Part shown: positions 103 to 53,691 of the stretch, piece by piece | Layout: every line of letters begins with the position of its first letter | How positions within the stretch are numbered: position 1 is the first letter of the stretch | Source: a virus | Strand: one strand, 5' to 3' | Virus record (IMG/VR): IMGVR_UViG_3300021185_003351 | Coordinates: 1 to 64,000 of that record | Length of the DNA stretch: 64,000 bases | The notes under the pieces: model-generated | Databases searched by the model: none | Told to the model about the DNA's origin: nothing | What the model saw: only the letters and a program-made list of their open reading frames with translations | Made by a program: the position numbers and the translations under genes

Positions 103-651
103 ATGATTAAATTAAAATCACTATTATCGGAAAAATATTTAGGATTTGGGTTTGGTGCTGGTAAAGTTAAAGAACAACAACTCCCTGATGCATCTATGAC
201 AGATCTAGCACAAGGATTAGATAGAGATCCAATGACAGGTAATCCAATACCTGGTGGAGCTGGCGGTACTGTTAACTTAAATTACAAAGAAGTACAATTA
301 GATCAATTGAAATTTGATGATCTTGTAAAAATGTTTAGAGTTAAAGATTATTATAATGATGTTCATTTTAATAGAATGCAGCCAGACGGCAAAGAAGGCC
401 CGTATTATAAAGACGGATTAAGTTTTCCTAATCCAAATGATACATCATCAATTGTTGCAGATATGAAGTCATTAGAAAATTGGAAAGAAAGAACCAAACG
501 AAGATTTGGCAATGTCAAAGTAATATTAGATCCAGATGCGGAAGAACATTGGGAAAAGGTTAAAATTGAAGATGATAAATTTTCCCAAGATAAACAAGAT
601 GCTGATGCTGCAAAAATGGATACGTTAAAACAATGGGGAACTACAGAATGA
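103..651 (+). CDS. Putative internal head protein with capsid-targeting leader (182 aa)
   Basis: The protein begins MIKLKSLLSE, a member of the leader family seen on eight proteins in this window. The leader ends with an L-x-E site of the kind cut by T4-type gp21 prohead proteases. After it comes a Gly-rich stretch (FGFGAGK), then a charged soluble domain with a Pro/Gly segment near residues 45-60 and no membrane segment. I do not recognise the mature domain. The start is fixed by the leader match and by the promoter-like motif 16 bases upstream. The stop overlaps the next ATG as ATGA. Packaging into the head is inferred from the leader only. Confidence 0.72.
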   Translation: MIKLKSLLSEKYLGFGFGAGKVKEQQLPDASMTDLAQGLDRDPMTGNPIPGGAGGTVNLNYKEVQLDQLKFDDLVKMFRVKDYYNDVHFNRMQPDGKEGPYYKDGLSFPNPNDTSSIVADMKSLENWKERTKRRFGNVKVILDPDAEEHWEKVKIEDDKFSQDKQDADAAKMDTLKQWGTTE

Positions 652-791
652 ATTGGATAAATAGCTGGAAAGCCTACAATAAAAAAAGTATATTCGAAAT
701 TAATATTAGAATAGGTACATTAACTATACTAGAAATAGTAACAGCTCCTAAAGTAAAAATAATGATATTAAACTTTGGAGTAGAACTATGA
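648..791 (+). CDS. Small protein of 47 aa, unknown function
   Basis: A short ORF exactly fills the gap between two cassette genes. Its ATG overlaps the previous TGA and its own TGA overlaps the next ATG, both as ATGA. This double coupling is the main support for it being real. The product starts MNWINSWKAYNKKS and then has a long Ile/Leu/Val-rich part that could be a beta strand pair or a weak membrane segment. It lacks the MIKLK leader of its neighbours, so it is probably not packaged by the same route. Confidence 0.5.
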   Translation: MNWINSWKAYNKKSIFEINIRIGTLTILEIVTAPKVKIMILNFGVEL

Positions 792-1255
792 TTAAGCTTA
801 AAGACATATTAATAGAACGAAAACTTAAACCAGAAGATGTTAAGATTATTCATAAAGAAACTAATCATTACAAACTAAGTGATACAGACGGTTTTAATAA
901 TCTGAAAATTGGTAATAACATAAGTTCTACCGAAAATCATTATAAAGGAGGAGAAAGTAATAAAGTATATGGTAGAGTAGCAGACAATTCTATACAGTTT
1001 GATTTTGATAGTATAGTAGCAGCTGGTAGTGATATCACAAACGTTGCCCTAGAATTTACAAATACTACAAATACTACAACGAAAAAAATAACTTTTTATG
1101 AAGTAAAACTTAATGTTACTTATAAAAATAGTGGAGTAAGGACCCTAGGCTCTGCTAGAACTAATATTACAATATCTAATTTGCCACGTGGCTATTATCA
1201 GTTAAGTAATAATAGAGATCCTAATAATTGGTTAAGTTTTATAGTTGATAAATGA
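788..1255 (+). CDS. Putative internal head protein, leader plus beta-rich domain (155 aa)
   Basis: It starts with MIKLKDILIE, the most typical form of the shared leader, identical over ten residues to the next gene. Cleavage after Glu10 would leave a 145-residue protein rich in Asn, Thr and Ser with alternating hydrophobic residues, consistent with a beta-sandwich. The segment around residues 75-125 (VALEFTNTTNTTT, YEVKLNVTY) looks like paired strands. No catalytic motif is visible and I do not recognise the family. It is coupled by ATGA overlap to both neighbours. Confidence 0.7.
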   Translation: MIKLKDILIERKLKPEDVKIIHKETNHYKLSDTDGFNNLKIGNNISSTENHYKGGESNKVYGRVADNSIQFDFDSIVAAGSDITNVALEFTNTTNTTTKKITFYEVKLNVTYKNSGVRTLGSARTNITISNLPRGYYQLSNNRDPNNWLSFIVDK

Positions 1256-1767
1256 TTAAATTAAAAGACATATTAATAGAACAAATAGGATTCCAAATTC
1301 CAGGAACTCCTAAACAAAAAAATATTGGTCGTAAAACACGTCAGGAATTTGCTAAGTTTTTCAATAACTTTGAAGCAGGTAATACAAAAACTGCTATATC
1401 AGGGTATGCTGAGCAAATAATGAATTCAGATGCGCCTGATGAAGTAAAACAAAATGCATCTGAAATATTAAATGAAATGGAGAAAGTAGCAATAGATATC
1501 CAAGACGAATTACATACAAGACAAATAAGCGACGACGAAGTTGCTGAAACAATATTTGATTATGTTAATTCTGAAATGGATGCTTCCGATTCAATTGAAT
1601 TTGAACAATTATTATGGTATGACAATCAAATTGATTCGAGTATCAACTCCGGAATGATAGAAAATGCTGTTGCTATACTGGACCAGTTACTTCATCAATT
1701 AGAATTCATACGTGGTTTTATCTTACAAGAATTTCCAAAAATCTCTCCTGCAGGATTTAAAAGATAA
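1252..1767 (+). CDS. Putative internal head protein, leader plus helical acidic domain (171 aa)
   Basis: The leader MIKLKDILIE is followed by a short Pro/Gly linker (FQIPGTPKQK) and then an almost wholly helical, acidic domain (about residues 27-160) with many Glu, Asp and Gln. There is no signal peptide or membrane segment. The ATG overlaps the previous stop as ATGA. The mature domain is not recognised. T4 internal proteins can act as inhibitors of host enzymes, but nothing in the sequence identifies a target here. Confidence 0.7.
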   Translation: MIKLKDILIEQIGFQIPGTPKQKNIGRKTRQEFAKFFNNFEAGNTKTAISGYAEQIMNSDAPDEVKQNASEILNEMEKVAIDIQDELHTRQISDDEVAETIFDYVNSEMDASDSIEFEQLLWYDNQIDSSINSGMIENAVAILDQLLHQLEFIRGFILQEFPKISPAGFKR

Positions 1768-1790
1768 AACTAATCTAGAAACATAACATT

Positions 1791-1931
1791 ATGAAACATA
1801 CAAGGTTTACTACTATCCTTACATACATACTGTGCGGGAAGTGCAAAAATAAATGGTTTACTAAAGGATATTTTGTTAATGAAACATGTCCAAAGTGTAA
1901 ACATGAAGATACAACTATGAATTCATTATAA
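1791..1931 (+). CDS. Small zinc-ribbon protein (46 aa)
   Basis: A 46-residue ORF with two CxxC knuckles: CGKC near residues 15-18 and CPKC at 33-36, separated by 14 residues, followed by a Lys-His. This is the spacing of a zinc ribbon. Small zinc-ribbon proteins in phages are often nucleic-acid or RNA-polymerase binding, but that is not shown here. It lies alone in the gap between two leader-tagged genes and carries no leader of its own. Confidence 0.5.
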   Translation: MKHTRFTTILTYILCGKCKNKWFTKGYFVNETCPKCKHEDTTMNSL

Positions 1932-1935
1932 GTAA

Positions 1936-1947
1936 TATTTATATAAA
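1936..1947 (+). promoter_or_regulatory. Candidate late promoter motif abutting the start codon
   Basis: TATTTATA at 1936-1943 with TAAA between it and the ATG at 1948. The motif sits only four bases from the start codon, so if it is a -10 element the transcript would be nearly leaderless. Confidence 0.45.
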
Positions 1948-2505
1948 ATGATCAAACTCAAAGACATATTATTAAGTGAAGGTACCCGTTGCTGGAAAGG
2001 ATTTGAGAAAAAAGGCACCAAAGAAAAATACGGAAAACGTGTTCCTAATTGTGTTAAAAAAGAATCTAAATTACCTGACGAAGGATTTTCAGATCCAGAC
2101 CAAATGAGAATGTATGAAAAAGACATTGACGAAGACTTAAGACGATGGGCAAAAGAAAAATGGACAGATCAGAATGGAAATCCATGTGGTAGCTCTAAAT
2201 CTAAAGGAGTAGTTAAATGTCGTCCATCTAAAAAAGTTTCTAAAAAAAGTCCAAAGACTTGGAGTCAAGTTGATAAGAAAAAAGAAGTTGCTAAAAAGCG
2301 TAGAGTTGGAATGGGTAAGCGAACTAAAAAAGCTGAAGTCATAACTCCTATAGAAGAGAAAAAGAAAAAAGCTAAAAGAGATGCTTGTTATCATAAAGTA
2401 AAATCTAGGTATGATGTATGGCCGTCTGCTCGAGCGTCTCAAGCTCTAGTTAAATGCAGAAAAAAAGGCGCTAAGAATTGGGGTAAAACTACTACCAAAA
2501 AATGA
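1948..2505 (+). CDS. Leader-tagged basic protein with DUF5872-like ends (185 aa)
   Basis: It starts MIKLKDILLSE. The next segment, RCWKGFEKKGT...GKRVPNCV (about residues 13-35), and the C-terminal segment ACYHKVKSRYDVWPSARAS...LVKCRKKGAKNWG (about 145-180) match a pattern I know from many marine phage and giant-virus proteins (DUF5872-like). The middle is extremely Lys-rich with Ser/Lys repeats, so the protein should bind DNA. A packaged, basic DNA-associated protein fits the leader. The conserved Cys residues suggest a metal or disulfide site. Function is otherwise unknown. Its stop overlaps the next ATG. Confidence 0.72.
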   Translation: MIKLKDILLSEGTRCWKGFEKKGTKEKYGKRVPNCVKKESKLPDEGFSDPDQMRMYEKDIDEDLRRWAKEKWTDQNGNPCGSSKSKGVVKCRPSKKVSKKSPKTWSQVDKKKEVAKKRRVGMGKRTKKAEVITPIEEKKKKAKRDACYHKVKSRYDVWPSARASQALVKCRKKGAKNWGKTTTKK

Positions 2506-3569
2506 TTAAGCTTAAAAATATATTAACCGAATCAATAGTAGGAAACAAAATTGTATGTGATAATTGCAATTGGAGTTGGGATATAAAAGATGGCGGAGAT
2601 GATTTATATATGTGTCACAAATGTGGACATAACAATACTCCTAAGTTAACAGAACAATCATCTAAAATTACAAATTTATTTATTGGTCAGCCTAATCAAG
2701 AAAATTGGAATCAAACAAACATAGAAAAGTGGCAGACAAAAGGCGAAAAATATTTATCTTCTTTTCTTAAAAAAATAGGAGCAATCGACATAGTAGTAAC
2801 TAATAATATGAGTACTTCAGCTGTTACTAATGAGATTAAAAAATTAGCAATAGCTGGTGCATTAGTTTCCGGAAAATTAGAATCTGTTACCATAGTATCT
2901 CATCGTACTGGGTGTGGTAGATTTAATTATGGTATAATGTATAGTTCTGGCGGAGGTGCTGCTACAGAATTTTGGAAAGTGTTATCTCAATATTGCAATT
3001 CTAATACAAAAATATTTCTGGGAGGATGTAGTGTAGCTGAAGATCCAAGTATAATTGCCAAAATATCTAAAATTACTAATTGTACAGTAACAGCTCCAAC
3101 CGGAACATATTTTCCAGGAATAGAATTAGTTACTACTGATGATAATAAATTTAATATATCTAAACGAGTTGGAAAATATATTACTTGTACAAATAATCCG
3201 TCAGGCGATAAAAAATATGAAAATTTTATAAACAAACATAAACAAAGTTTATTTGCTGATTCAAAATATTATTATAAGATTAGTCGTAAATTACAAACAA
3301 TTACAAAATTTCATGATGAGTTGAACTATATATCCCCAAAAAATTTATATAATTTAAGACGACGTATTTTTACTCCCCCTTTAGAAGGCCCACCTCCAGC
3401 GTATCGATATTTAAAAGATGATGCATATAAAAAAGAAATAAATAATTTAATGGATACATTAATAGAAACAATGACTGTTAAACTAATTCAAGATTATATT
3501 AAATCTATAGGATGTGTTCCAACTAAAACAAATCCTATACAAGGAACAAGAAGTGCAATATTCAAATGA
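2502..3569 (+). CDS. Leader, zinc ribbon and caspase-fold-like domain (355 aa)
   Basis: Three parts are visible. The leader is MIKLKNILTE. A zinc ribbon follows, with Cys19, Cys22, Cys38 and Cys41 around a GGDDLYMC segment seen in many marine phage proteins. Then comes a larger domain with two hydrophobic strands ending in a His and a Cys: VTIVSHR (His134) and IFLGGCSVAED (Cys176). This order and spacing resemble clan CD (caspase/CHAT/DUF4347-like) cysteine proteases, where His precedes Cys at the ends of adjacent strands. The text after Cys176 (TAPTGTYFPG) also fits that group. The last 130 residues are basic and unassigned. Protease activity is inference. A non-catalytic relative is possible because the usual Gly after His is Arg here. 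Confidence 0.65.
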   Translation: MIKLKNILTESIVGNKIVCDNCNWSWDIKDGGDDLYMCHKCGHNNTPKLTEQSSKITNLFIGQPNQENWNQTNIEKWQTKGEKYLSSFLKKIGAIDIVVTNNMSTSAVTNEIKKLAIAGALVSGKLESVTIVSHRTGCGRFNYGIMYSSGGGAATEFWKVLSQYCNSNTKIFLGGCSVAEDPSIIAKISKITNCTVTAPTGTYFPGIELVTTDDNKFNISKRVGKYITCTNNPSGDKKYENFINKHKQSLFADSKYYYKISRKLQTITKFHDELNYISPKNLYNLRRRIFTPPLEGPPPAYRYLKDDAYKKEINNLMDTLIETMTVKLIQDYIKSIGCVPTKTNPIQGTRSAIFK

Positions 3570-3862
3570 TTAAACTAGAAAATATATTAAAAAGCATTCC
3601 TAATCAAGAAATAGTTGAATCACATCTTGGACAATGGGAATATCCTGGTAGAATAACAAGAATACCAAATAATCAAATTACAATGCAACCTGATCCTAGA
3701 ACAGGCAAGGAAATAGAACATATATTATTAATAATAGGAGATCAAAGCGGCGAAAAACAAATAGGAGTTCCAAATGGACCAAATTTATTATTTCCCAATG
3801 ATCAATCAGTTACAGAATATCCAATAAGAAAATATGAAGTTTATAAAAGTCGTAAAAAATAA
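3566..3862 (+). CDS. Putative internal head protein with divergent leader (98 aa)
   Basis: It begins MIKLENILKSI, a diverged copy of the cassette leader (Glu for Lys at position 5, no L-x-E at position 10; the next candidate site is around QEIVES). The rest is a small domain with several Pro and Gly and a central ILLIIGDQSGE strand. No family recognised. ATGA overlap with the gene upstream and a 29-base overlap with the gene downstream. Whether the altered leader still works is uncertain. Confidence 0.6.
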   Translation: MIKLENILKSIPNQEIVESHLGQWEYPGRITRIPNNQITMQPDPRTGKEIEHILLIIGDQSGEKQIGVPNGPNLLFPNDQSVTEYPIRKYEVYKSRKK

Positions 3863-4016
3863 TAATTCTGCAGAGTATATAAATACTAATCATATAACAT
3901 CATTTTATAGTGGTGATAATTCAGAAATAACAATTGTAAAGTTAAAAACTAGCAGACGAATTCATATACAAGAACATGTAGATATATTTGCAGACAGAAT
4001 TTCCATGGAAAAGTAA
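3834..4016 (+). CDS. Small conserved-looking protein (60 aa)
   Basis: The product reads as a compact two- or three-strand protein (MKFIKVVKNNNSAEYINT... then ITIVKLKTSRRIHIQEHVDIF). Small bacterial proteins of the pattern 'strand, N-x-x-x-I-x-x-I, strand, strand, helix' are common in Bacteroidetes and resemble FlbD-like folds, though this is only a visual likeness. It overlaps the end of the previous gene by 29 bases in another frame. Function unknown. Confidence 0.5.
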   Translation: MKFIKVVKNNNSAEYINTNHITSFYSGDNSEITIVKLKTSRRIHIQEHVDIFADRISMEK

Positions 4017-4024
4017 TAATACAA

Positions 4025-4039
4025 TATTTATATTAAATA
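4025..4039 (+). promoter_or_regulatory. Candidate late promoter motif
   Basis: TATTTATA at 4025-4032 followed by TTAAA, 22 bases before the ATG at 4055, in a short intergenic gap. Confidence 0.5.
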
Positions 4040-4054
4040 ATAAAGGTATATAAT

Positions 4055-4240
4055 ATGACATCGATAGAAATATATATGAAAATTGAGGATCAATGGGATA
4101 TATTTATGGAAAATCATGTAAGATTTAATGATAAAAAAGTAAAAGCAGCAGGTGTTAGAGCAAGAAAAGCTATTGGTGAGATAAAAAAATTAGCTTCGCA
4201 ATACAGAACTGCTTGTTTAGCTGAATCAAAAGAGATATGA
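4055..4240 (+). CDS. Histone H1-like (Hc1-type) DNA-binding protein, copy 1
   Basis: A 61-residue protein with an acidic/hydrophobic first half and the core VKAAGVRARKAIGEIKKLA at about residues 29-47. This core is characteristic of the small histone H1-like proteins (Hc1 family) widespread in Bacteroidetes, usually read as K-A-A-G-x-R-A-R-K-A-x-x-E-I-K-K-L. A second copy is at 6763-6933. It would bind DNA and may help condense the genome or alter the host nucleoid; both are inference. It sits between packaged-cargo genes, but has no leader. Its stop overlaps the next ATG. Confidence 0.75.
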   Translation: MTSIEIYMKIEDQWDIFMENHVRFNDKKVKAAGVRARKAIGEIKKLASQYRTACLAESKEI

Positions 4241-4950
4241 ACGAGTCAATATTAAGAAATATTATACGAGAACATCTATTAGAAAGCTTGTCTGAGCAAA
4301 CAATTGAAACAACATTGTTTTCACCAGAAGAAGAAAAGTTTCTTGCTACATTCACAAAGCTAGGAGCAACTAGTTTAGGCATATTATATGCTAAAAATAT
4401 GATAGGAATCCGGGAATTTCTTAATAGAAGCGGTAAGGATTTCAACTTAACGCCTCCTGTATTGAATAGTTTGCTAAGAAATAAGACAATTTCCATAGTT
4501 CCTTATGGTGGATACTCCAGAAACAATGATTATACCATTCAATTGAATATACCTTTAAAGGATTTAGAAGGAATTAAAGAACCAGAAGGCGATGATGCTG
4601 CAGGCGGTGCACCAGAACCAGCAGTAGCTGAAGAAAGTGTTCAAATATTAGCTCGAAATATAGTGTCAGAAGCAAAAAAATCAAAAAAAAAGAAAAAAAG
4701 TAAGGTTTATACCGGCAAATCAAGAACATTGAAGCGGTTACCAAGCGGATACGTAGGATATTTAGAGAAAATTATCCAAGTTTTAGGCGAAAAAGTGAAA
4801 AATGACATGGAAAAGGAGCATTTGGTTGCAGATATCCTTGATAACCTATCTCATAACTTTGGTTTAACACCTAAACAAGTATATCGTTCTTATATTTATT
4901 ATAAATCGCAAAATAGATTGGCAAATATCATCAAGGATAACAATGATTAA
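4237..4950 (+). CDS. Putative head-associated protein with variant leader (237 aa)
   Basis: The N-terminus, MNESILRNIIREHLLESLSE, is amphipathic and contains L-x-E and L-S-E sites, so it may be a variant capsid-targeting leader. The body has a folded part (residues about 28-110), an Ala/Gly/Pro/Glu-rich linker (EPEGDDAAGGAPEPAVAE), a Lys run (about residues 147-156) and a helical C-terminal domain. The layout, two domains joined by a low-complexity linker, is typical of prohead core or internal proteins. No known family. It overlaps the next leader-tagged gene by eight bases. Confidence 0.6.
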   Translation: MNESILRNIIREHLLESLSEQTIETTLFSPEEEKFLATFTKLGATSLGILYAKNMIGIREFLNRSGKDFNLTPPVLNSLLRNKTISIVPYGGYSRNNDYTIQLNIPLKDLEGIKEPEGDDAAGGAPEPAVAEESVQILARNIVSEAKKSKKKKKSKVYTGKSRTLKRLPSGYVGYLEKIIQVLGEKVKNDMEKEHLVADILDNLSHNFGLTPKQVYRSYIYYKSQNRLANIIKDNND

Positions 4951-6148
4951 ATTAAAAGACTTATTAACAGAGCAAAATAATTATACTAAAACTATATTTG
5001 ATTGGCTGAATAAATTTAAGCCAGATTTTATGAAAAATTCAGCTAAAATGGGATTTCTTCCATCTTCAAATTATGCAATTAATCAATTAGAAGGTCCTTC
5101 TGGCAAGAAAGATGGAATTGTATCTGTTATAAATTATGTAGTAGGCCTAGACGTCTTTTTTAATACCAGAACTGGAGACGCACAACCTAAATTAAAAAAT
5201 AATAAAAAACAACTAGCATCATCAATATCACGAAATACTATAGTATTAAATAAAAGCAATAATGTATATTTTGATTTTACGCCAGCTGGAAGAGGACCTA
5301 CTGTAGCAGTCGATAGGCAACAATTTATGAATAAAAGTACAACGTGGTATCCAAATGGAAAATATTTTGGAAACTCTGTTACAACTATGGTTGGAAGTAT
5401 TAATCAAATAAATCAAGTCCACTTTCGAACAAAAAGACCTCAAGTTATATTTATTGCTCCAGCTGATAAACCAGTTAACGGAGTTTCATATAATAAAATA
5501 ACAATGGGTACATCTGATAAACTTCATTTATATAGTACAAGAGACGTTGCTACTACAAAAGTTCCTGGTACAAAAGCTACTCCAGATAAAGTAATAAAAA
5601 AACCAGGTCAACAGTTTCCTCCATTACCGGTCCCTGATAGTAACTTCCAATCTAACTCAGCACAATTAACACCGACTGCTCTAAGAAATGTAACAGCTTT
5701 AATTACTCAAAGAATACAACAAATGAGAGAAGCTGGTATAACAATTCCAGCTGGAATAGGTACAATTGTAATAAATTCTGGTACTGATAGTATGCCGACT
5801 GGTAGAGCCGGAGGAAATCCACAATTAGCAGCAGATAGAGGTGCTACTCTTCAAGCATTATTAGAAGCACAAGGTATTCCTCGAGGTCAAATTCGTATAA
5901 ATACTAGAGGATTTGTTAACGCAGTACCTGCAGGTACTACTAGTTGGGCAAATAAACCAGCTTCTCAAACAAGACTCCAATGGCAACAAGCAGCTGCACC
6001 AGCACGAATGGTTCAAATGACATTTCCGTCTGTGCAAGCGCCTGATGAAGAAGAAATAATAAAAGGTAAGAAAGGTACTCCTCCAAAAGAAGTAGATACT
6101 CCTAAAAAAGTAACAATTAATCATTTAGAAGTATTTATTAAAAAATAA
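4943..6148 (+). CDS. Leader-tagged protein with OmpA-like C-terminal domain (401 aa)
   Basis: It starts MIKLKDLLTE. After a long N-terminal domain of unknown type (residues about 15-205) and a Pro-rich linker, the C-terminal part (about 225-360) reads as an OmpA/MotB-like domain: DSNFQSNSAQLTPTAL at its start, an INSGTDSMP strand-loop, the helix NPQLAADRGATLQALLEAQGI matching the family's N-x-x-L-x-x-x-R-x-x-x-x-x-x-L signature, then a final RGF strand. OmpA-like domains bind peptidoglycan. A capsid-packaged copy could act in the host envelope during DNA entry; this role is inferred. There is no signal peptide, which fits delivery from the particle rather than secretion. Confidence 0.68.
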   Translation: MIKLKDLLTEQNNYTKTIFDWLNKFKPDFMKNSAKMGFLPSSNYAINQLEGPSGKKDGIVSVINYVVGLDVFFNTRTGDAQPKLKNNKKQLASSISRNTIVLNKSNNVYFDFTPAGRGPTVAVDRQQFMNKSTTWYPNGKYFGNSVTTMVGSINQINQVHFRTKRPQVIFIAPADKPVNGVSYNKITMGTSDKLHLYSTRDVATTKVPGTKATPDKVIKKPGQQFPPLPVPDSNFQSNSAQLTPTALRNVTALITQRIQQMREAGITIPAGIGTIVINSGTDSMPTGRAGGNPQLAADRGATLQALLEAQGIPRGQIRINTRGFVNAVPAGTTSWANKPASQTRLQWQQAAAPARMVQMTFPSVQAPDEEEIIKGKKGTPPKEVDTPKKVTINHLEVFIKK

Positions 6149-6195: not shown

Positions 6196-6705
6196 ATGAA
6201 AAAGTTATTGATATTATTATTACTTCCCATCACAATATTTTCACAAGAAAATTATTATGATACTACGATTGCTAGATTAATCAATGAAAAAATTAATGAA
6301 TATCGCATAAGCAAAGGTCTTTACAATTTAATTCAAACAGATAGATATAAAAGTGAGACAGAACAGTACTGTGCTAAAGCTGCACAAAAGATAACAGAAA
6401 CAAGAATAATTGAACATTCGTCTTTATTTTTTCCTGGTAAATGGAGCGAAATTATTTGTTCTGTTCCTTTTAATGGAGCCGAAATGAGTGCTGATTCATT
6501 AGCAAATGAAGTTGTTGATGCATATATAAATTCTAGACCACATCATGTTGCAATATTGAGTATTGGAGTTACAAAAATACACACATCTGTATACATATAT
6601 TATAATCCCAAACAAAAGATGTGGAAATTATTTACAGCATCTCATATTATGGATTGGGAATATGAATTCAATGTACAATATAGTTCGATTAAATTGGAAT
6701 ATTGA
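6196..6705 (+). CDS. Secreted CAP/SCP-domain-like protein (169 aa)
   Basis: A clear signal peptide (MKKLLILLLLPITIFSQ) ends in the Phe-Ser-Gln style typical of Flavobacteriia. The mature part has the CAP-superfamily pattern: an Asn/Arg helix (INEKINEYRISKGL), a helix with a Tyr-Cys-Ala core, IEHSSLFFPGKWSEII with His and Glu, and a later SRPHHVAIL segment with His. In CAP proteins these two His and the Glu line a cleft. Role in the phage is unknown; it would act in the periplasm or outside the cell. Standalone unit preceded by an AT-rich TTATTATAATA element. Confidence 0.6.
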   Translation: MKKLLILLLLPITIFSQENYYDTTIARLINEKINEYRISKGLYNLIQTDRYKSETEQYCAKAAQKITETRIIEHSSLFFPGKWSEIICSVPFNGAEMSADSLANEVVDAYINSRPHHVAILSIGVTKIHTSVYIYYNPKQKMWKLFTASHIMDWEYEFNVQYSSIKLEY

Positions 6706-6762: not shown

Positions 6763-6933
6763 ATGGCAACATCACAAGAATTATTCGATCAGATAAAAAA
6801 TTTATTTGTAGAATTTGAAGAAAATCACAATGGTTCAACTAAAGCTGCTAAAGGCAGAGCAAGAAAAGCTATTGGAGAAGTAAAAAAGTTAGTGACTGAA
6901 TATAGAAAGCAGTCTGTAGCAGAAAATAAATAA
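6763..6933 (+). CDS. Histone H1-like (Hc1-type) DNA-binding protein, copy 2
   Basis: A 56-residue protein starting MATSQELFDQIK with the core TKAAKGRARKAIGEVKKLV at about residues 26-44. The core is nearly identical to the protein encoded at 4055-4240 and to Bacteroidetes Hc1-like histones. The two copies differ in their N-terminal halves, so they are paralogues rather than a recent duplication. Likely cytoplasmic DNA binding. It lies in an AT-rich gap region with a TTATAATAA element about 40 bases upstream. Confidence 0.75.
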   Translation: MATSQELFDQIKNLFVEFEENHNGSTKAAKGRARKAIGEVKKLVTEYRKQSVAENK

Positions 6934-24500: not shown

Positions 24501-25100
24501 GCGGTATATAGTAAACCAGTTCAATTAAAAAATAATAGTTATACGTCTTCTTTAAATATATCTCCAGAAATACCTTTTTCATATGATAATATTAATGTAG
24601 TATTAAATAATAAAGATATCTTATTATCTGGTATATCTAATAAAATACAAGGAGAAATGCGTCCTATAGATATGTATACCGGAAGTATATCATCATTAAG
24701 TGTAAATATTAACGCTTCTTCAGGAATTTCAGTTGCAACAGTAGGTCAAAGAAGACATAGATTTGAAGGATGTAAATTGACTGGCCCTGGTATTAATATT
24801 CCGACTAATAATTTTCCAGTTGGAGAACCGGTTGTTACAAGAGTAAGAGTTAGTCCAACAGAATTAGTTAGCAGTGATCCTAATCGATTAGGAGTATTTA
24901 GTACAAAACGTGATACCGAAATAACAATTAAAGAAGAACCAGAAATTATTGTATCAGAAAATGATCCTACAACAACAGCTCAAACAACTACTAATACATT
25001 AGCTGCTAAAGGAAATACATCAATACCAGAAAATAATCCACCGGTTATACAACGAACTACAAATAATAAAAGTAATTATAAATCTACTAGAGGAAATTAA
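21573..25100 (+). CDS. Very large baseplate wedge-like protein with LamG-like insert (1175 aa)
   Basis: Residues about 460-590 contain a tail-protein-I-like region (MLGHHYDILYSYINSM, then PNELLYSVAKQFGWTL and NNIPGLLKSKGTKRSIQALLSCYGVP), a pattern known from baseplate proteins that hold fibres. Immediately after, about residues 610-740, comes a LamG/concanavalin-like sandwich (VELRFKIDNVL... LQELRLWSSSLQ). The C-terminus ends in a disordered Thr/Asn-rich tail. It is probably a gp7-type wedge component to which adhesins attach. A perfect 16-base palindrome follows the stop. Confidence 0.6.
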   Translation: MINQYSNIKQINESLNALEGYRYRDADRNIFLRNTQQYIFDTAYHDTEFHIYSGDEWITGKYNGVNLSGFTGQKFDENNNPIFLNNSHTLDVYQQFSDLQLTSGNYRFAVNFFENKIGSYDTPSFVIDKISADKTEIRLRLLDETNSQHLLQITDWIDNVNQTVFNTQTSKNYLLNFGKNQTIHFVNSVVIGKYLFVKTYKPVDTDIFKENFKCWVVCEKQLPYIDNVSLSEQEVEIQYNVLNHINWDAYDESLQSSETSLKNWNQLLGSSLQTSQQIIDSYFSGSLSGINLNIDYSDFNNFIFYSSATERLSNFKYKLELLEYYTAQSSSAASLSGGTSTTNANDYKSLYNNLIGTFDEFENFLYYQSSSALFSNNIPSINPNVSFITGSYINPVPKINNSIPYQLQSVTSSIFESWYSGTYESASLYDLRNNNKLTKSIPEFILLDENNEQLSIFVNMLGHHYDILYSYINSMTKINNRDEHPKKGMPNELLYSVAKQFGWTLTNGNQYQNLWEYVLGTNETGTPLTGSNTVGDESLPGREMTFNVWRRIVNNIPGLLKSKGTKRSIQALLSCYGVPQSLITIKEYGGPRIERKPVYEKLNFDYALDLINNNAGTVRVDYDQPINSVELRFKIDNVLNNPTVPSSMNLYSIGSNNVTINFVRGTLGTLSINGTATNEIECYNGEFLNTLLRSGSSGTLELIVQKSKYGKIVAAVSSSVTASFPNTGTLTLGGATRLKGQLQELRLWSSSLQNDPFSNHTKAPGSYDGNINAYDELTFRLPLNENINHSQTGSLLGVEPNISNISASFIGWSSNTPYDSLEETYYYDGISIGAGTYDDNKIRIESNELTGNLSVATRASLSQYDKAPLDSNKLGVFYSPQTIIDEDIIAQLGSVKLDQYIGDPEDQQKKSYPELIQFSRSYWKKYNNKNNLNAFINMFTLFDLSFFKQIDQLLPARIDKIKGLLVQPNLLERSKEAVYSKPVQLKNNSYTSSLNISPEIPFSYDNINVVLNNKDILLSGISNKIQGEMRPIDMYTGSISSLSVNINASSGISVATVGQRRHRFEGCKLTGPGINIPTNNFPVGEPVVTRVRVSPTELVSSDPNRLGVFSTKRDTEITIKEEPEIIVSENDPTTTAQTTTNTLAAKGNTSIPENNPPVIQRTTNNKSNYKSTRGN

Positions 25101-26976: not shown

Positions 26977-28557
26977 ATGTCAGATATCACAGAATATACT
27001 GGTGAATCAGTAAAAGCGTTTAAAAAAGTTAATCCTACTGATTTAAAATTTACTCCAATGCAATTAAACAAAACGTTTTATATGTATTCTGGAAGTACTT
27101 TGTTATATACTCCTTTAAATGCTTATTATTGTACTAGTATACCAGAAAATCATTTAAATTGGGGTGAACAGAATTTAAACGGTACATATAAATCAATTAT
27201 TTATAAATCATTACAACAATTATTTTATAATGAATCATTTGATACAGAAATATTTTTACATCAAACATCATCTATTTTTAGTATTCCTCAAAAGAAGATG
27301 GGACAAAAAATTAAAGAAAATTCATTTACATATAATAGTTCATCATTAAATTTAAAATCAAATCGTTCTGGAAAAATATATGATGTAAATGTTAACACCG
27401 GATCTTTTCCAAATACATTAAATTTTTATGAAGGATTTAATAAGTATTTTGATTCTTCGAATATTACATATGAATCTCAAAATATTTTATATGTTGATGG
27501 GGTAACTACTAATACTGGAAATCAAAAGTCTATAGGATTATCAGCATTATTTTCCGGAAATGGTTATATATCATCTAGTTTAGAAGGAATATATGATAAA
27601 CAACATAATTATGCAATATCATTTTTTATATCAGGAACAAATAGTACAAATAATGATCAATTGATATTAACAAAAGCAGATCAAATAACTAGAAGTCCGT
27701 GTCCTTTTAATATCGAATTAAGTGGAAGTAATGAAATTAAATTTAGTATACGTGGTAATAATTCTAATTTAATTGCGTTAATAACATCTTCTGCAGATGT
27801 ATCGTCATCTTGGACTCATGTATTATGTCAAAAGACTGGTAGTAGTATTGAAATGTATATTAATGGAACTAAACATTCATCCGGTAGTTTTAATTTTCTT
27901 CAAGACAATTTAAATACATATGTAAATTCTCCAACATTTATTAATAACAATTATCATTTAAGTATTGGGGGTTATAACACAAATAGTTATAATCTACAAG
28001 GATATTTAGATGAAGTTAGGATTTATAACAAAGCTTTAACAAACTCTGAGATAAGCACGTTAACGGACCGTAATGAAGGTGGAGGATTATTACAAACAAA
28101 TATAGTTGGTAATGTATTTTCAGAAAAAGGATTTATTGTTATATCAACTCCTGATTATCGATACAATGACTTAATAACTACAAAATATACTGCTAGTTAT
28201 CAAAGTACAATTACATCATATGAAATGTCAACATTATGTCGTATAGATGCAGGTGATTTCAATGTTACAAATAATCATAGTGCACATAATGATTCGAATA
28301 TACAATATTTAAACTATTTAACAGGTAGTGATTTTGCTCCATATATTACATCGGTAGGATTATATAATTCAGCTGGTACGTTATTAGCAATTGGAAAATT
28401 AGGACAACCAATAAGAAAACGTGATGATGTTGATATGAATGTTTTAGTTAGAATGGATTTAGACATTAGACCTATTAATTCTGGATCAAGTTTAGAAAGT
28501 ACAAATCAAAATTTTAATATAAATAATTCTAAAACAATAGGAGGATTATCATATTGA
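26977..28557 (+). CDS. Tail structural protein with LamG-like domain (526 aa)
   Basis: Residues about 165-350 form a LamG/concanavalin-like domain: SALFSGNGYISSSLEGIYDK, NYAISFFISGTN, WTHVLCQKTGSSIEMYINGTK and GYLDEVRIYNKALTNSEI, the last being the standard G-x-x-D-E-V-R-I-Y-x-x-A-L-x-x-x-E-I end of such domains. These usually bind glycans. The C-terminal module (YITSVGLYNSAGTLLAIGKL) is shared with the preceding gene product. Probably an adhesin or fibre component contacting host surface sugars. Its TGA overlaps the TTG start of the kinase-like gene. Confidence 0.75.
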   Translation: MSDITEYTGESVKAFKKVNPTDLKFTPMQLNKTFYMYSGSTLLYTPLNAYYCTSIPENHLNWGEQNLNGTYKSIIYKSLQQLFYNESFDTEIFLHQTSSIFSIPQKKMGQKIKENSFTYNSSSLNLKSNRSGKIYDVNVNTGSFPNTLNFYEGFNKYFDSSNITYESQNILYVDGVTTNTGNQKSIGLSALFSGNGYISSSLEGIYDKQHNYAISFFISGTNSTNNDQLILTKADQITRSPCPFNIELSGSNEIKFSIRGNNSNLIALITSSADVSSSWTHVLCQKTGSSIEMYINGTKHSSGSFNFLQDNLNTYVNSPTFINNNYHLSIGGYNTNSYNLQGYLDEVRIYNKALTNSEISTLTDRNEGGGLLQTNIVGNVFSEKGFIVISTPDYRYNDLITTKYTASYQSTITSYEMSTLCRIDAGDFNVTNNHSAHNDSNIQYLNYLTGSDFAPYITSVGLYNSAGTLLAIGKLGQPIRKRDDVDMNVLVRMDLDIRPINSGSSLESTNQNFNINNSKTIGGLSY

Positions 28558-29099
28558 TTAAGTTAAAAAATATATTAAAAGAAATTTCTGAATCTGATGC
28601 TGAAAAATTATTAAATAAAATTAAAAATAAAGAATTTTCATTTGTAGCACAAGGTGATAATGGCAAAGTGTATGCAATAAATGGAGAAGATTTATTATTT
28701 AAAATAACCACTGAACCAGATGAAAAAGCAGTAGCTGATGTTATTGTTGGTAGATCTAGTGAATTTAACTCATTTATTCCTGTACATTATTCAGATCCAA
28801 AGCGTAGTATGTATATTATGAATAAAGCAAATCCATTATCATCAAAAGAAGAAATAGAAATAAATAAATTTTATAAAGGTTATAAAAATTTTTTAAGACA
28901 AGCTGGACCAGAAGCTTCTGTATTTGATTATTTAGACACAGAAGAAACAAGAAGTTATTCCATGGAATTAATTAATTTTATGCGAGCGTTACAGCAACAT
29001 GTTAGAAAAACAAATATAGGCGATTTACATTTATCATTAGATTTCAAGCCAGATAATATTATGAAATGGAATGGTAATTTAGTAATGGTCGATTGGTAG
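28554..29099 (+). CDS. Leader-tagged minimal protein kinase-like protein (181 aa)
   Basis: The start codon is TTG, chosen because it gives MIKLKNILKE, the capsid-targeting-type leader. The body has kinase-fold landmarks: a Gly loop-like AQGDNGKVYAI (Gly34, Gly37), a beta-3 Lys50 in LLFKIT, the catalytic loop DLHLSLDFKPDNIM with Asp163, Lys165 and Asn168 spaced as in HRDLKPEN, and a final VMVDW whose Asp180 matches the DFG Asp. The protein stops one residue later, so activation segment and rest of the C-lobe are absent. It could be a compact kinase or a nucleotide-binding remnant. Resolvase gene follows nine bases later. Confidence 0.68.
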   Translation: MIKLKNILKEISESDAEKLLNKIKNKEFSFVAQGDNGKVYAINGEDLLFKITTEPDEKAVADVIVGRSSEFNSFIPVHYSDPKRSMYIMNKANPLSSKEEIEINKFYKGYKNFLRQAGPEASVFDYLDTEETRSYSMELINFMRALQQHVRKTNIGDLHLSLDFKPDNIMKWNGNLVMVDW

Positions 29100-45820: not shown

Positions 45821-47650
45821 ATGGCGTCGTTAAGAAAACGTTTACAAAACCTATTTAGTACCAATGTAGTAGTTAGAAAATTTGGAAAAGATAAACTACG
45901 AGTAGTTGATACAAATAGATTACAATCAACTGGTAATTTAGCTGCAACAAAAATTACTGATCGATATTCTAGATTACATGGATCAAATCGACATGGATAT
46001 GGATCATATGGATCTGCATTTGGAGGATATGATTCAAATTATTATTCTCAACAAAATAGAAAACAATTATATACAGATTATGAAATGATGGATAAAGATC
46101 CTATTATTTCTTCTGCATTAGATATATATTCAGATGAGTCTACATTAGAAGATCAGTTTGGAGATATCCTATCTATTAAAACAAATAAGACACATATACA
46201 AAAAATATTATATAATCTATTTTATGATGTTTTAAATATTGAATTTAATATGTGGCCATGGGTTAGGAATATTTGTAAGTATGGAGACTTCTTTTTAAAA
46301 TTAGATATTTCAGATGAATTAGGAATAATTAATGCTAGACCATTATCATCATATGAAATTGAAAGACTTGAAGAATTTGATTCTGAATCTGGAGAATATA
46401 ATATTAAATTCAGACACGACATTAGTGAAAATGTACAATATGATGTATTTGAAATAGCACATTTTAGAATGTTATCAGATTCAAATTTTTTGCCATATGG
46501 TAGATCGATGTTAGAAGGAGCTAGACAAGAATTTCAAAAACTAACAATGTTAGAAGACGCAATGTTAATTCATAGAATTATGAGAGCTCCAGAAAAAAGA
46601 ATCTTTAAAGTTGATATTGGCAATATTCCACCAAATGAAGTTGATACATTTATGGAACAAATTGTTAATAAAATGAAAAAGGTTCCATATGTTGATAAAA
46701 ATACCGGAAATTATAATTTAAAGTTTAATTTAAATAATATGTTAGAAGATTATTATTTACCAGTAAGAGGTGGAAATAGTCAAACACAAATTGATACATT
46801 ACCAGGTATGGAATTTACTGGTATTGATGATATTGAATATGTAAAAAATAAAATGATGGCAGCTTTAAAAATTCCTAAACCATTTTTAGGATATTCTGAA
46901 GGGGTTGAAGGAAAAAGTACATTAGCTTCTATGGATATTAGATTTGCTAGAACAATCGAACGAATTCAAAAAATTATTTGTTCTGAATTATCAAAAATTG
47001 CAATAGTTCATTTGTATGCACAGGGGTTTGAAGGAGAAGATTTAATTGGTTTTGAATTATCATTAACTCCACCTTCAATTATATATGATCAACAAAAAGT
47101 TGCACTAATGAATGAAAAAATTACTTTAGCAGTTGCAATGAAAGATTCAAAACTAGTATCAGACAAATACATTTATGAATACATATTTAATATGTCTGAA
47201 GACGAATGGTTAGAAGAAAGAAATAATGTTGTAGAAGATCTTAAACTAAGATTTAGACAAAATCAAGTAGAGCAAGAAGGAAATGATCCAACATTAACTG
47301 GAGTTTCATATGGTACTCCACACGATTTAGCCTCCATGCATATGAGCACCGATGATGTTGAAGATAAAGATCAAGGCGGCCGTCCACCTGAAGGAATAAA
47401 ATACGGACAGCATAAAAATCATATGGGTTGGGATCCTACCGGAGGAAAAACAGTTAAACAGGCAATGAATACAACATTCCAACCAGATCCTAGATTTAAA
47501 ACAACTACTAAAACTGGCATGAAACCTGTAGCTACAGAAAATGCTGATATTTTAAAAAAAATTAATAAAAGTAGATCTAAAATACTATTTGAAAAAAATA
47601 AAAAAAATAAAGATTCTGGATCAATTTTAGATGAAAATAATATTTTATAA
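45821..47650 (+). CDS. gp20: Portal vertex protein, T4 gp20-like (609 aa)
   Basis: The sequence follows the T4 portal family: YEMMDKDPIISSALDIYSDE near residue 88-107, then EDAMLIHRIMRAPEKRIFKVDIGN, MLEDYYLPVRGGNSQTQIDTLPG and KIPKPFLGYSEGVEGKSTLA, which are among the best conserved parts of gp20. The last 100 residues are disordered and basic. Dodecameric ring at the unique capsid vertex through which DNA passes. Order terminase-portal-core-protease-scaffold-capsid is as in T4. Confidence 0.95.
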   Translation: MASLRKRLQNLFSTNVVVRKFGKDKLRVVDTNRLQSTGNLAATKITDRYSRLHGSNRHGYGSYGSAFGGYDSNYYSQQNRKQLYTDYEMMDKDPIISSALDIYSDESTLEDQFGDILSIKTNKTHIQKILYNLFYDVLNIEFNMWPWVRNICKYGDFFLKLDISDELGIINARPLSSYEIERLEEFDSESGEYNIKFRHDISENVQYDVFEIAHFRMLSDSNFLPYGRSMLEGARQEFQKLTMLEDAMLIHRIMRAPEKRIFKVDIGNIPPNEVDTFMEQIVNKMKKVPYVDKNTGNYNLKFNLNNMLEDYYLPVRGGNSQTQIDTLPGMEFTGIDDIEYVKNKMMAALKIPKPFLGYSEGVEGKSTLASMDIRFARTIERIQKIICSELSKIAIVHLYAQGFEGEDLIGFELSLTPPSIIYDQQKVALMNEKITLAVAMKDSKLVSDKYIYEYIFNMSEDEWLEERNNVVEDLKLRFRQNQVEQEGNDPTLTGVSYGTPHDLASMHMSTDDVEDKDQGGRPPEGIKYGQHKNHMGWDPTGGKTVKQAMNTTFQPDPRFKTTTKTGMKPVATENADILKKINKSRSKILFEKNKKNKDSGSILDENNIL

Positions 47651-49238: not shown

Positions 49239-49865
49239 ATGAATAAAAATTTATTAGTAGAATATATTCCATTTAAACCAATAGGGCCAATTAATGAACA
49301 AATGGCTAATAAATTTGGAGTTCCAGGTGGGTTAGTAGTACAAGGCGTTTTACAAAGAGCTGGAGCTAAAAATCAAAATGGACGTGTTTATCCTAAAAAT
49401 ATATTAGATAGAGAAGCTAAAAAATATCAACAAGAATATATTAGTCAAAACAGAGCGTTAGGCGAATTAGATCATCCAGAATCATCAGTTGTTAATTTAA
49501 ACAATGTATCTCACAATGTTTTAAAAATGTGGTGGCAGAATAACGATTTAATGGGAGCTGTACAAATATTAGAAACCCCAGCTGGTAAAATATTAAAGTC
49601 GCTATTTGATGCTGGTATTACATTAGGAATATCTAGTAGAGGATTAGGATCAGTAAAAGAATTATATAAAGAGTCTGCAGTTGAAGTTCAAGAAGATTTT
49701 GAATTAATTTGTTTTGACTTTGTTTCAAATCCGTCTACCCATGGCGCATTTTTAAAACCAATGAATGAATCAATTAATAAAAATACAAAACAAAATTATA
49801 AAAAAGTAAATGATATTATTACATCAATTTTATGTGATAGTGGAAAATGTAGGATTTTACCATGA
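49239..49865 (+). CDS. gp21: Prohead maturation protease, T4 gp21-like (208 aa)
   Basis: Catalytic residues are visible: His79 in GELDHPE and Ser132/Ser133 in GISSRGLGS, the serine-protease pair of the herpes/T4 prohead protease family, at nearly the T4 positions (T4 His85, Ser140). Length (208) matches T4 gp21 (212). The enzyme is packaged in the prohead and cuts scaffold, capsid and leader-tagged proteins after L-x-E or I-x-E. Its presence is what makes the MIKLK..LxE leaders meaningful. Overlaps the next gene by four bases. Confidence 0.94.
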   Translation: MNKNLLVEYIPFKPIGPINEQMANKFGVPGGLVVQGVLQRAGAKNQNGRVYPKNILDREAKKYQQEYISQNRALGELDHPESSVVNLNNVSHNVLKMWWQNNDLMGAVQILETPAGKILKSLFDAGITLGISSRGLGSVKELYKESAVEVQEDFELICFDFVSNPSTHGAFLKPMNESINKNTKQNYKKVNDIITSILCDSGKCRILP

Positions 49866-50227
49866 GAATAAAAGATTTATTAGAAGCATTAGATAGAGAG
49901 CAAGTTGAAATACCAAAAGAGAAAAAACGTGAATTTGTAGAAGCAGTAAGAAATTACTCTCAATTAGGCGAATCAGTATATGGTAAAGGTGATCTTAAAG
50001 AATTATGTCAAAAGATACACTATATGGTAGAAATGGCTCAACAAGTAACATTGTCTGAAGGCGATTGGTTTGATGGTATTACTGTTAATAGACACATGAA
50101 AGGACTTAACGAATCATATAAAGTATTTGAAAAGACTGCTCAAGAAATATCTAGACTACAAGAAAGACTATCTGCATCATATGAAGATATTGGTCAAGGA
50201 TTAAGTAAATATTTTGATATAAAATAA
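49862..50227 (+). CDS. Putative head protein with short cleavable-type leader (121 aa)
   Basis: Starts MRIKDLLEALDREQVE, a shorter relative of the cargo leader (I-K-D-L-L-E) with an L-L-E site. The rest is helical, with KQVTLSEGDWFDGITVNRHMK in the middle, a pattern seen in marine T4-like phage genes next to the protease. Likely an internal or core head protein. ATGA overlap with gp21. Confidence 0.55.
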   Translation: MRIKDLLEALDREQVEIPKEKKREFVEAVRNYSQLGESVYGKGDLKELCQKIHYMVEMAQQVTLSEGDWFDGITVNRHMKGLNESYKVFEKTAQEISRLQERLSASYEDIGQGLSKYFDIK

Positions 50228-51002: not shown

Positions 51003-52022
51003 ATGGACGGAAAATCGGACTTACTAAAAGAAGCGATCGCTGACGCAAAAGCCGTAAAGGAAACTGCATTAGCAAACGCTAAAATAGCTCTTGAAGAGGC
51101 TTTTGCCCCTAGAATTGAAGCAATGCTATCAACAAAACTTTCTGAAGATTTATATGAAGACGAAATGGAAGACGAAGTACCAGCGCCAGTAGCCGATACA
51201 CCAGTTGAAGAACATGACGTTATGTATGAGCCTGAAGTAGAAGGTGGAGAGATGGATGCTGCCCCTGCACCAGAAATGGATGCCGAAATTGATATGGATA
51301 TGCCTGCTGAAGAACCAGTAGTTGCAGATGACATGGAAATGGAAGGTATGATGGATGATGCACCAGTAGACACAGACAGCGTTGAAGAAGATCTAGAACT
51401 AGAAGCAATCATAAGAGAGTTAGAAGAAGATTTAAATGAAGAAGAACTAACTGAAGAAGATATCTTTGAATCAAATGATTCTACAGATTTAACTGAAGAG
51501 GATAAAATGGTCGACGACAAAAAAGAAACCAATGAAGAATTCAATATTGATGAAATCATTGAAGGTATTTTGTCTGAAGACGAAGAAGAAAAAGACTCTA
51601 AAGAAAAAGTAGAAGAAGAAAAAGAAGAAGATGAATCTAAAGAAAAAGTAGAAGAAATGACTGAAGAATTAACTGAAGCATATGATACTATTGAATCTTT
51701 AAGAGGCACAATCAACGAAGTTAATCTTTTAAATGCAAAACTTTTATATACTAACAAATTATTTAGGAATTTTGAATTATCAGAAAGTCAAAAAATGACT
51801 GTTATCGAAAATTTCGATAGAGCTGGTAATACAAGAGAAGTTAAACTCGTATTTAGTACATTAGCAGAAAATTTTACAGTTCCTGTAAAAAAGAGAAAAG
51901 TAGTTAAAGAAGGCACTGCCTCTAAAGCAATTAACTCTACTGCTCCTGCAACTAAAACAATAATCAACGAAGGTAATGAATTAGCTAACAGATGGAAGAA
52001 GTTAGCAGGATTACTAAGTTAA
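51003..52022 (+). CDS. gp22: Prohead scaffold protein, T4 gp22-like (339 aa)
   Basis: The protein is dominated by Glu/Asp (residues about 55-220, with Asp/Met/Pro-Ala-rich stretches and runs such as EEEKEEDESKEKVEEM), as usual for scaffold cores. A helical C-terminal domain follows (ETEELTEAYDTIESLRGTIN..., LLYTNKLFRNFELSESQK). The C-terminal part matches the marine gp22 pattern. It lies between protease and major capsid protein, has a strong ribosome site and lacks Cys. It is degraded by gp21 during maturation. Confidence 0.85.
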   Translation: MDGKSDLLKEAIADAKAVKETALANAKIALEEAFAPRIEAMLSTKLSEDLYEDEMEDEVPAPVADTPVEEHDVMYEPEVEGGEMDAAPAPEMDAEIDMDMPAEEPVVADDMEMEGMMDDAPVDTDSVEEDLELEAIIRELEEDLNEEELTEEDIFESNDSTDLTEEDKMVDDKKETNEEFNIDEIIEGILSEDEEEKDSKEKVEEEKEEDESKEKVEEMTEELTEAYDTIESLRGTINEVNLLNAKLLYTNKLFRNFELSESQKMTVIENFDRAGNTREVKLVFSTLAENFTVPVKKRKVVKEGTASKAINSTAPATKTIINEGNELANRWKKLAGLLS

Positions 52023-52047: not shown

Positions 52048-53691
52048 ATGAAAATTTCATCTTTACTAGAAGACAATAATCCTTCCCAAAGAAATGCAGC
52101 GTTAAAAACTGTAACAAAATGGGAAAAGACAGGTCTTCTAGAAGGTTTAAAAACCGAAACAGAAAAAGCAGGTATGGCTCAGCTTCTTGAAAATCAAGCT
52201 AGACAACTTGTAAAAGAAGCATCATCAACTGGTACTACTGAAGGATCAGAAGAATGGGCTGGTGTAGCTTTACCATTGGTAAGAAGAATCTTTGCTGAAT
52301 TTGCAGCAAAAGAATTTGTTTCTGTACAACCAATGAATTTACCATCTGGACTAGTATTTTATTTAGATTTCAAATATGGAACTGAAAAAGCTGGATTTGA
52401 TGGTGATAATTTAAATGTAGCTGGCGATCCTTTTGGATCACCAAATGCTGACGATTCCATGTTTGGTGTAACAACTACTGCAGGAGATCCAACTGGTGGT
52501 CTTTATGGTGCTGGTAGATTTGGTTACTCACTCAATGATGTAGCAGTTACTGCTTCAGCTGTTGTTTCAGCAGCATCATCTGCATCTGTAAATTACGATT
52601 CATCATTTACTGGCAATAAATTATCTGAATATAACGTAGTAACTGTACCGTTAACATCGTTATCAGGTTCAGATTCAACTGCAGTTAGATCATTTATTAT
52701 CGAAACTGGATCTGGTACAATTGTGCAACATTCTGCATTTACAAAATTAAATGCTGCAAAAACTCATGTTGAGTTTTTAGTATCTGGATCAGCTGCATCA
52801 ATGACTGGTGTTGAATACATTGTTAAATTTAGTGAGCAACCAACTGACATCTCTAGAGGCGACTTTGAAGATTCAAATCCTTTTAAAGGTTCTGGTGCTG
52901 GTACTGGTATCAATAATGGTACTGATATTGACATTCCTGAAGTTAACTTAGAAATGCAATCAGATCCAATCGTAGCTAAGACTAGAAAGTTAAAAGCTGT
53001 TTGGACTCCTGAATTTGCACAAGATTTAAATGCATATCATTCAATTGACGCTGAAGCTGAATTAACTTCAATGTTAAGTGAATATGTATCAATGGAAATT
53101 GATCTTGAAATTCTAGATATGTTAATCAATGGTGCATTAACAACTGAATATTGGTCAGCTCAATCTAATCAATTCTTGAACGCAGCTGGTACAGCTTTTG
53201 AAGGAAGAGATGTTTCTGCAGGCGGATATTATAATACACAAGGAGAGTGGTTCCAAACTTTAGGAACTAAACTTCAAAAAGTATCTAACAAAATTCATCA
53301 AAAAACACTTAGAGGTGGTGCTAATTTCTTAGTTACTTCACCTGCTGTTGCAACTATCCTAGAATCTATTCCTGGATTTGCTGCTGACACAGATGGTAAC
53401 AAAATGGAATTTGCTGCTGGTGTTCAAAAAATTGGTGCAATCAATAATAGATACACAGTATATAAGAATCCATATATGAAAGAGAACGTAATCCTTATGG
53501 GTTATAGAGGAGCACAATTCCTTGAAACTGGTGCAGTATATGCTCCATACGTACCTTTAATTATGACTCCACTAGTATACGATCCTGTTAATTTCACCCC
53601 AAGAAAAGGTGTAATGACAAGATATGCTAAGAAAATGGTAAGACCAGAATTCTACGGTAAAGTATATGTTGCTGGATTAGACACTATTTAA
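52048..53691 (+). CDS. gp23: Major capsid protein, T4 gp23-like (547 aa)
   Basis: Starts MKISSLLEDNNPSQRNAALK, then VTKWEKTGLLEGL and a region LVKEASSTGTTEGSEEWAGVALPLVRRIFAEF, which corresponds to the T4 gp23 propeptide and HK97-fold N-arm. The rest includes PMNLPSGLVFYLDFKYG and the C-terminal MTPLVYDPVNFTPRKGVMTRYAKKMVRPEFYGKVYV, typical of gp23. The propeptide would be cut by gp21 after Glu within about the first 70 residues. Codon use is slightly more biased than in neighbouring genes, as expected for the most abundant protein. A strong terminator follows. Confidence 0.96.
   Translation: MKISSLLEDNNPSQRNAALKTVTKWEKTGLLEGLKTETEKAGMAQLLENQARQLVKEASSTGTTEGSEEWAGVALPLVRRIFAEFAAKEFVSVQPMNLPSGLVFYLDFKYGTEKAGFDGDNLNVAGDPFGSPNADDSMFGVTTTAGDPTGGLYGAGRFGYSLNDVAVTASAVVSAASSASVNYDSSFTGNKLSEYNVVTVPLTSLSGSDSTAVRSFIIETGSGTIVQHSAFTKLNAAKTHVEFLVSGSAASMTGVEYIVKFSEQPTDISRGDFEDSNPFKGSGAGTGINNGTDIDIPEVNLEMQSDPIVAKTRKLKAVWTPEFAQDLNAYHSIDAEAELTSMLSEYVSMEIDLEILDMLINGALTTEYWSAQSNQFLNAAGTAFEGRDVSAGGYYNTQGEWFQTLGTKLQKVSNKIHQKTLRGGANFLVTSPAVATILESIPGFAADTDGNKMEFAAGVQKIGAINNRYTVYKNPYMKENVILMGYRGAQFLETGAVYAPYVPLIMTPLVYDPVNFTPRKGVMTRYAKKMVRPEFYGKVYVAGLDTI

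Follow-up and report, generated by a model that had tools for sequence, protein, structure and literature searches.

Many proteins of a T4-like phage, and of related viruses represented in public contigs, begin with nearly the same ten residues, MIKLK[DN][IL]LxE, and continue into bodies that are unrelated to one another. On sequence evidence and by analogy with T4, we consider it very probable that this leader acts as a T4-like capsid-targeting propeptide, which would be cut by a gp21-type protease and is attached modularly to cargo. The leader was studied in the first 64 kb (64,000 nucleotides, hereafter the window) of the 172,973-base viral record IMGVR_UViG_3300021185_003351, a sequence of 29.5% G+C in which one strand carries nearly all genes. 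Judged by its gene content, the phage is T4-like, with the portal, S77 prohead protease, gp23-type capsid protein, and terminase all clear. An earlier note on this DNA had listed eight MIKLK-type leaders, and all eight are found as open reading frames (ORFs), seven in a cassette at positions 103-6148 and one at 28554. Positions beyond the window are given in the coordinates of the phage record.

Conservation of the leader as a peptide

Degenerate codons for MIKLK[DN][IL]LxE were run as a search pattern over viral contigs and gave at least 132 matches in at least 120 contigs. Each of the 132 listed matches starts an ORF of 50 codons or more, or else continues past the end of the sequence, and about 90 unrelated body families stand behind them; the earlier note had proposed such a search of phage genomes for the leader on varied domains. 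With the order of the codons permuted as a control, the whole viral collection yielded a single match, and the reversed pattern gave zero matches in 34 leader-bearing contigs. When the leader pattern was run over 85,000 prokaryote genomes (257 billion bases), 63 matches were returned, 31 of which open frames of at most 30 codons and look like chance occurrences. On the permuted control and the prokaryote counts, we rejected a chance origin of the leader.

The conserved block comprises residues 1 to 10 and ends sharply at Glu10. With position 10 left free in the search, Glu10 is present in 108 of 118 MIKLKD[IL]L ORFs; position 9 shows no constraint, and the residues from 11 to 20 are nearly random. 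Of the ten leaders in which Glu10 is missing, eight carry an [ILVMF]xE that ends somewhere in residues 9 to 16; in a downstream stretch of the same width the figure is 13%. Conservation that runs to the glutamate at the P1 position and then ceases is the picture expected of a removable propeptide.

Leader genes often share an ATGA overlap with the preceding gene (46 of 149 cases; in the window, the pairs 788/1252, 1948/2502, and 2502/3566), because the Met-Ile start of the leader itself supplies the ATGA. This overlap, given by the ATGAT start, and a swap junction that falls at the leader (described below) are what one might see if the repeat were an element of DNA or RNA, such as a start-site enhancer, a device for translational coupling, or a recombination tag, with the peptide incidental. 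We regard such an element as extremely improbable: the 152 non-redundant leaders comprise 138 distinct 30-base sequences, so that nearly every leader DNA is unique, and upstream of them there is no consensus and nothing in common. It is the free variation of synonymous codons that led us to reject a repeat at the DNA or RNA level.

Unrelated bodies behind the leader

With the leader removed, 141 proteins fell into 92 BLAST clusters. Pfam families found on the leader proteins include RimK-like ATP-grasp, NUDIX, RNase_T exonuclease, zeta-toxin-like P-loop, M23 peptidase, lysozymes, a cell-wall hydrolase, DUF5824, and others, mostly with one instance each. Exact matches to the leader number up to 11 per contig, the maximum being reached in one contig of 75 kb.

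The exchange of bodies can be seen directly. Contig L056 is 99.4% identical to positions 2509-4977 of the window; the identity breaks at codon 12 of the leader gene at 4943 and resumes at 6694, and the L056 counterpart of that gene retains the leader in front of an unrelated body. This is a natural cassette swap with its junction just behind the leader. Across contigs, five different leader families are found in the slot between homologs of the genes at 96910 and 99076, and two genes of the same phage, at 153561 and 152953, are leaderless relatives of proteins that carry the leader elsewhere.

Association with the head genes

The gp21-type protease that the earlier note had placed at 49239 is confirmed by Peptidase_S77 (PF03420; 113.9 bits against a cut-off of 27, E = 9e-33) and by the PHROG family of head maturation proteases (3e-56). 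Its gene (49239..49865) lies in a head cluster that is encoded throughout on the + strand. The cluster includes a T4-type portal (gp20; 45821..47650). The gene immediately after the protease (49862..50227) starts with MRIKDLLEAL, and its orthologs in several relatives begin MIKLKD[IL]L[NK]E. A scaffold-like acidic protein in the gp22 position (51003..52022) has the conserved N-terminus ..DLLKE-AIADAKAV, and the major capsid protein of the gp23 type (52048..53691) begins MKISSLLEDN. In relatives, gp23 begins MDLKNILNEG or MSDIKSLLSE, near-copies of the leader, and at the end of its N-terminal region the capsid protein has a conserved QL[VIL]xE-A (with -S in one case) at the place of FLTE-A in T4 gp23. 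By closeness, the relatives of the capsid protein are those of Flavobacterium phage immuto (57% identity), Microcystis phage Mel-JY01 (55%), and Rhodothermus phage RM378, followed by T4 and its kin.

Homologs of gp21 occur in 25 of 120 leader loci; of 119 control loci with the same total length, 1 has such a homolog. The control loci, defined by a control 14-mer, are not neutral, since 78 of the 119 held a homolog of some window ORF, and for this reason only the head-gene comparison was used. For 20 leader genes, gp21 is the next recognized gene upstream. Of 34 other large leader contigs, many of which are fragments, 17 have a gp23 gene. Every leader contig above 100 kb is of this lineage: S77 is present in five, terL together with a portal in one, and a sheath protein 53% identical to that of the phage in another.

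The gene beside the protease, which bears the leader in relatives, probably encodes a prohead-core protein, and one leader family is located between neck genes. In T4, gp21 cuts the core proteins gp22, 67, and 68 to fragments (PMC5694885). Such features would be expected if the leader bound the prohead core but the proteins were for the most part core or structural elements that serve in assembly and are degraded in part, rather than cargo delivered to the host. We consider this unlikely as a general account, since core parts would not be expected to comprise about 90 unrelated families that include many enzymes (NUDIX, exonuclease, kinase-like, M23) and differ greatly between close relatives. 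A portion of the leader proteins probably belongs to the core or neck and may not be injected effectors. The statement of the earlier note that the leader turns "any fused domain into an injected effector" therefore goes too far: one family is the gene beside the protease, others lie among neck and tail genes, and the protein at 3566 is without the cut motif.

A matching pattern in T4

From the leader of the phage, we abstracted the rule M..[hyd]..[hyd][hyd].E, in which hydrophobic residues stand at positions 4, 7, and 8 and glutamate at position 10, and applied it at the annotated starts of T4. Exactly four starts fit, namely those of IPII, IPIII, gp24, and Alt. All four are T4 head proteins from which gp21 removes N-terminal propeptides (PMC5694885). 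In the leader of T4 IPIII, residues 4 and 7 direct targeting and residues 8 and 10 direct processing (PMC9026906), and these are the positions conserved in the leader of the phage. The ten residues of the T4 leader suffice for the packaging of foreign proteins (PMC9026906). The substitution E10D reportedly blocks cutting in T4. The outcome of the T4 rule strongly supports a predicted role in capsid targeting.

The same residues 4, 7, and 8 would make the hydrophobic face of a helix, and an amphipathic helix might route proteins to the tail, to a membrane-bound assembly site, or to a replication compartment. Several cargos are indeed peptidoglycan hydrolases or carry an OmpA-like domain, and some leader genes adjoin neck, tail, or replication genes. 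We judge another destination of this kind to be very unlikely, given that conservation stops after Glu10, that gp23 and the protease-adjacent gene have the start in common with the leader, that the T4 matches are four head proteins, and that the leader is without a hydrophobic signal core.

Several points weigh against the leader being a capsid-targeting propeptide. The T4 rule was written with the T4 leaders already known and was not blind, and Alt, which fits it at residue 10, is reportedly cut after ITE-6 (PMC5694885). S77 is present in 18 of 34 leader contigs of at least 40 kb and in 5 of 16 random contigs, a difference that is not significant on its own (Fisher p = 0.13) because many contigs are fragments. 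The isolated relative Flavobacterium phage immuto 2-6A shows one leader protein only (KNV73_gp231, starting MIKLIDLLTE-SLFPF, at position 24569 of its record). Within the phage itself, the protein at 3566 has no L-x-E, and that at 146797 has neither Glu10 nor a clear L-x-E.

Leader genes of the phage and their neighbors

The earlier note had described the leader as ending in L-x-E in almost every case. Six of the eight leaders do so at residue 10; the leader at 1948 ends one residue later (LLSE11), and that at 3566 has no L-x-E at position 10. All of the genes in question lie on the + strand. The first (103..651) encodes MIKLKSLLSE and a further 172 residues to which no family was matched. Two genes that overlap by ATGA share the leader MIKLKDILIE: the first (788..1255), with a body of 145 residues, weakly matches PHROG 8992 (unknown function), and the second (1252..1767), with 161 residues, is weakly similar to a leader gene of another contig, L096. 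The protein at 1948..2505 continues from MIKLKDILLSE into basic, Lys/Arg-rich modules of the DUF5872 type; its cyanophage homologs align mostly from about residue 14, behind the leader, and are embedded within larger proteins.

In the protein at 2502..3569, MIKLKNILTE precedes a zinc-ribbon-like CxxC...CxxC segment and a further domain. Its relatives among viral contigs are limited to a single near-identical contig, and no relatives of it or of the 28554 protein were found in isolated phages. A PDB search with the 2502 protein gave no match, and its fold model was useless (predicted local distance difference test score, 32). A caspase-like His/Cys pair in this protein was a mere impression that neither the PDB search nor the fold model backed, and we do not claim it.

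The leader variant at 3566..3862 (MIKLENILKSI) is 98 residues long. The cassette also includes a gene with a differing N-terminus, MNESILRNIIREHLLESLSE (4237..4950), which adjoins leader genes in relatives too and to which no family was matched. The last gene of the cassette (4943..6148) encodes MIKLKDLLTE and a protein whose C-terminal half is OmpA-like, below the Pfam cut-off; this is the gene with another body in L056. Directly behind it lies a gene with a secretion signal and weak CAP similarity, below the cut-off (6196-6705). At about 3500-4030 of L056, a different signal-peptide gene stands in its place, exchanged together with the 4943 gene, and the pair may move as one unit. Two related small basic genes (4055-4240 and 6763-6933) flank the end of the cassette and share a 37-base stretch of 89% identity; the second encodes an Hc1 protein of the histone H1-like type (PF07432, E = 9.5e-10).

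The gene outside the cassette (28554..29099) encodes MIKLKNILKE and a domain whose fold may be protein-kinase-like. Its TTG start is backed by four orthologs that keep the leader and start at the same position. Almost every one of the 50 PDB matches listed for this protein is a protein kinase or an aminoglycoside phosphotransferase, with modest scores (best E about 1e-3, TM-scores about 0.3), and the motifs LFKIT, D....N, and DW are conserved. Beyond the window, the phage has leaders at 97328 (MIKLKNLLKE), 146797 (MIKLKDILEQ), and 148420 (MILLKNILNE), and perhaps another at 147807 (MNKLKNILKD).

Other sequence elements recur around the leader. A small domain encoded at 153561-153911, and also in L023, L114, and many other loci, occurs with and without the leader; a leader-bearing relative weakly resembles DUF5754, and a gene of this type is the next recognized gene upstream of 13 leader genes. 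Another N-terminal motif, (R/K)RFGTKNLxE, is found at 98023-98978 and in contigs L066, L067, L070, L080, L094, and L097. It stands alone or behind the leader and ends in another L-x-E, and it may be an extended propeptide. The protein at 97328 shares with proteins of L072, L084, L100, and L101 a stretch like FAWER..G..LPTL after the leader, possibly an additional targeting part.

Likely host

In prokaryote genomes, convincing leader genes that stand beside homologs of genes of the phage occur mostly in short contigs from metagenome-assembled genomes of Flavobacteriales and other Bacteroidota. For this reason, a member of the Bacteroidota is the likely host. By eye, a run of genes at 122860-137258 resembles glycosyltransferases and enzymes of sugar metabolism, and immuto is annotated likewise. 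About ten tandem paralogs at 65442-68351, 79963-82099, and 150563-152642 share the start ..IVxDGLVFNMDAANRASYP.. and are perhaps lectin-like adhesins.

Proposed mechanism and significance

From T4 and from the sequences we infer the following course. During head assembly, the hydrophobic residues 4, 7, and 8 of the leader would bind the prohead core, so that any protein carrying the leader would be enclosed in the head. The S77 protease would then cut after [IL]-x-Glu10, and the freed domain would stay beside the DNA inside the head and probably accompany it into the next host. As a portable module, the leader would allow recombination to exchange the bodies behind it and give a changing set of cargo, which may include kinase-like, NUDIX, exonuclease, zeta-toxin-like P-loop, and ATP-grasp proteins, peptidoglycan hydrolases, and many unknowns. 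The modular, T4-like packaging leader proposed in the earlier note is well supported by observations that could have gone against it: the end of the conserved block at the P1 glutamate, the retention of a shifted L-x-E, the recurrence of the leader on head genes, the adjacency to the protease gene, the body swaps, and the T4 pattern. Packaging, cleavage, and injection are extrapolated from these.

To our knowledge, few head-carried proteins like the T4 internal proteins have been described, since they are difficult to recognize from sequence. If the proposal is correct, the first ten residues would be enough to list hundreds of candidates for injected proteins in uncultured phages, and phage heads could be loaded with proteins through a second, independent capsid-targeting tag. 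Such tags could help to find the proteins that viruses of this group bring along in their particles and probably inject. We lean toward the broader view that T4-like phages of Bacteroidota and their relatives, one of them of 369 kb, have an open cargo system, in which a single removable tag of ten residues would bring perhaps hundreds of unrelated, cassette-exchanged families into the head. These would form a large reservoir, readable from sequence, of proteins injected at the start of infection for counter-defense, host takeover, or entry through the cell wall.

Comparison with known systems

In T4, the internal proteins are the first to act on infection: the restriction enzyme GmrSD is blocked by IPI, and IPIII is required on one wild strain of Escherichia coli (PMC9391042). 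Injected internal proteins of T4 counter host defenses (PMC9391042, PMC5694885), and the fast-changing set of predicted cargo described here would fit such a role. The T4 leaders (MKTYQEFIAE in IPII and IPIII, MAKINELLRE in gp24, and MELITELFDE in Alt) are likewise N-terminal and ten residues long, with hydrophobic residues at positions 4, 7, and 8 and Glu10, and in T4, too, the leader is common to unrelated proteins and a gp21-type protease and gp23 are present. The earlier note had compared the leader with MKTYQEFIAE; by eye, that of gp24 is closer. The likeness extends over ten residues, too short a span to separate descent from convergence. The system described here differs from that of T4 in the sequence of the leader and in the number of genes that bear it, up to eleven per contig versus four in T4; the bodies are unrelated to those of T4, and it is known from genes alone.

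For T-even phages, the use of such leaders to enclose varied proteins has already been proposed (PMC9026906). A literature search found descriptions of the T4 leaders and none of a MIKLK-type leader. What is new is a second, distinct leader, its use by many genes per phage, its attachment to about 90 unrelated families among the matches listed, and its presence on head genes themselves.

In the phiKZ-like giant phages SPN3US and 201phi2-1, a prohead protease likewise removes N-terminal propeptides ending in x-x-Glu, in this case from ejection proteins of the head, which enter the cell (PMC5694885). Those propeptides differ in that they may exceed 100 residues, are not described as one short shared module, and have the cut motif A/S/G-x-E. 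MuF and other packaged polyvalent proteins likewise fuse a head-directing part to varied effector domains (PMC5512222). The head-directing part of the MuF type is a folded structural domain, whereas the leader of this phage appears to be a removable peptide of ten residues.

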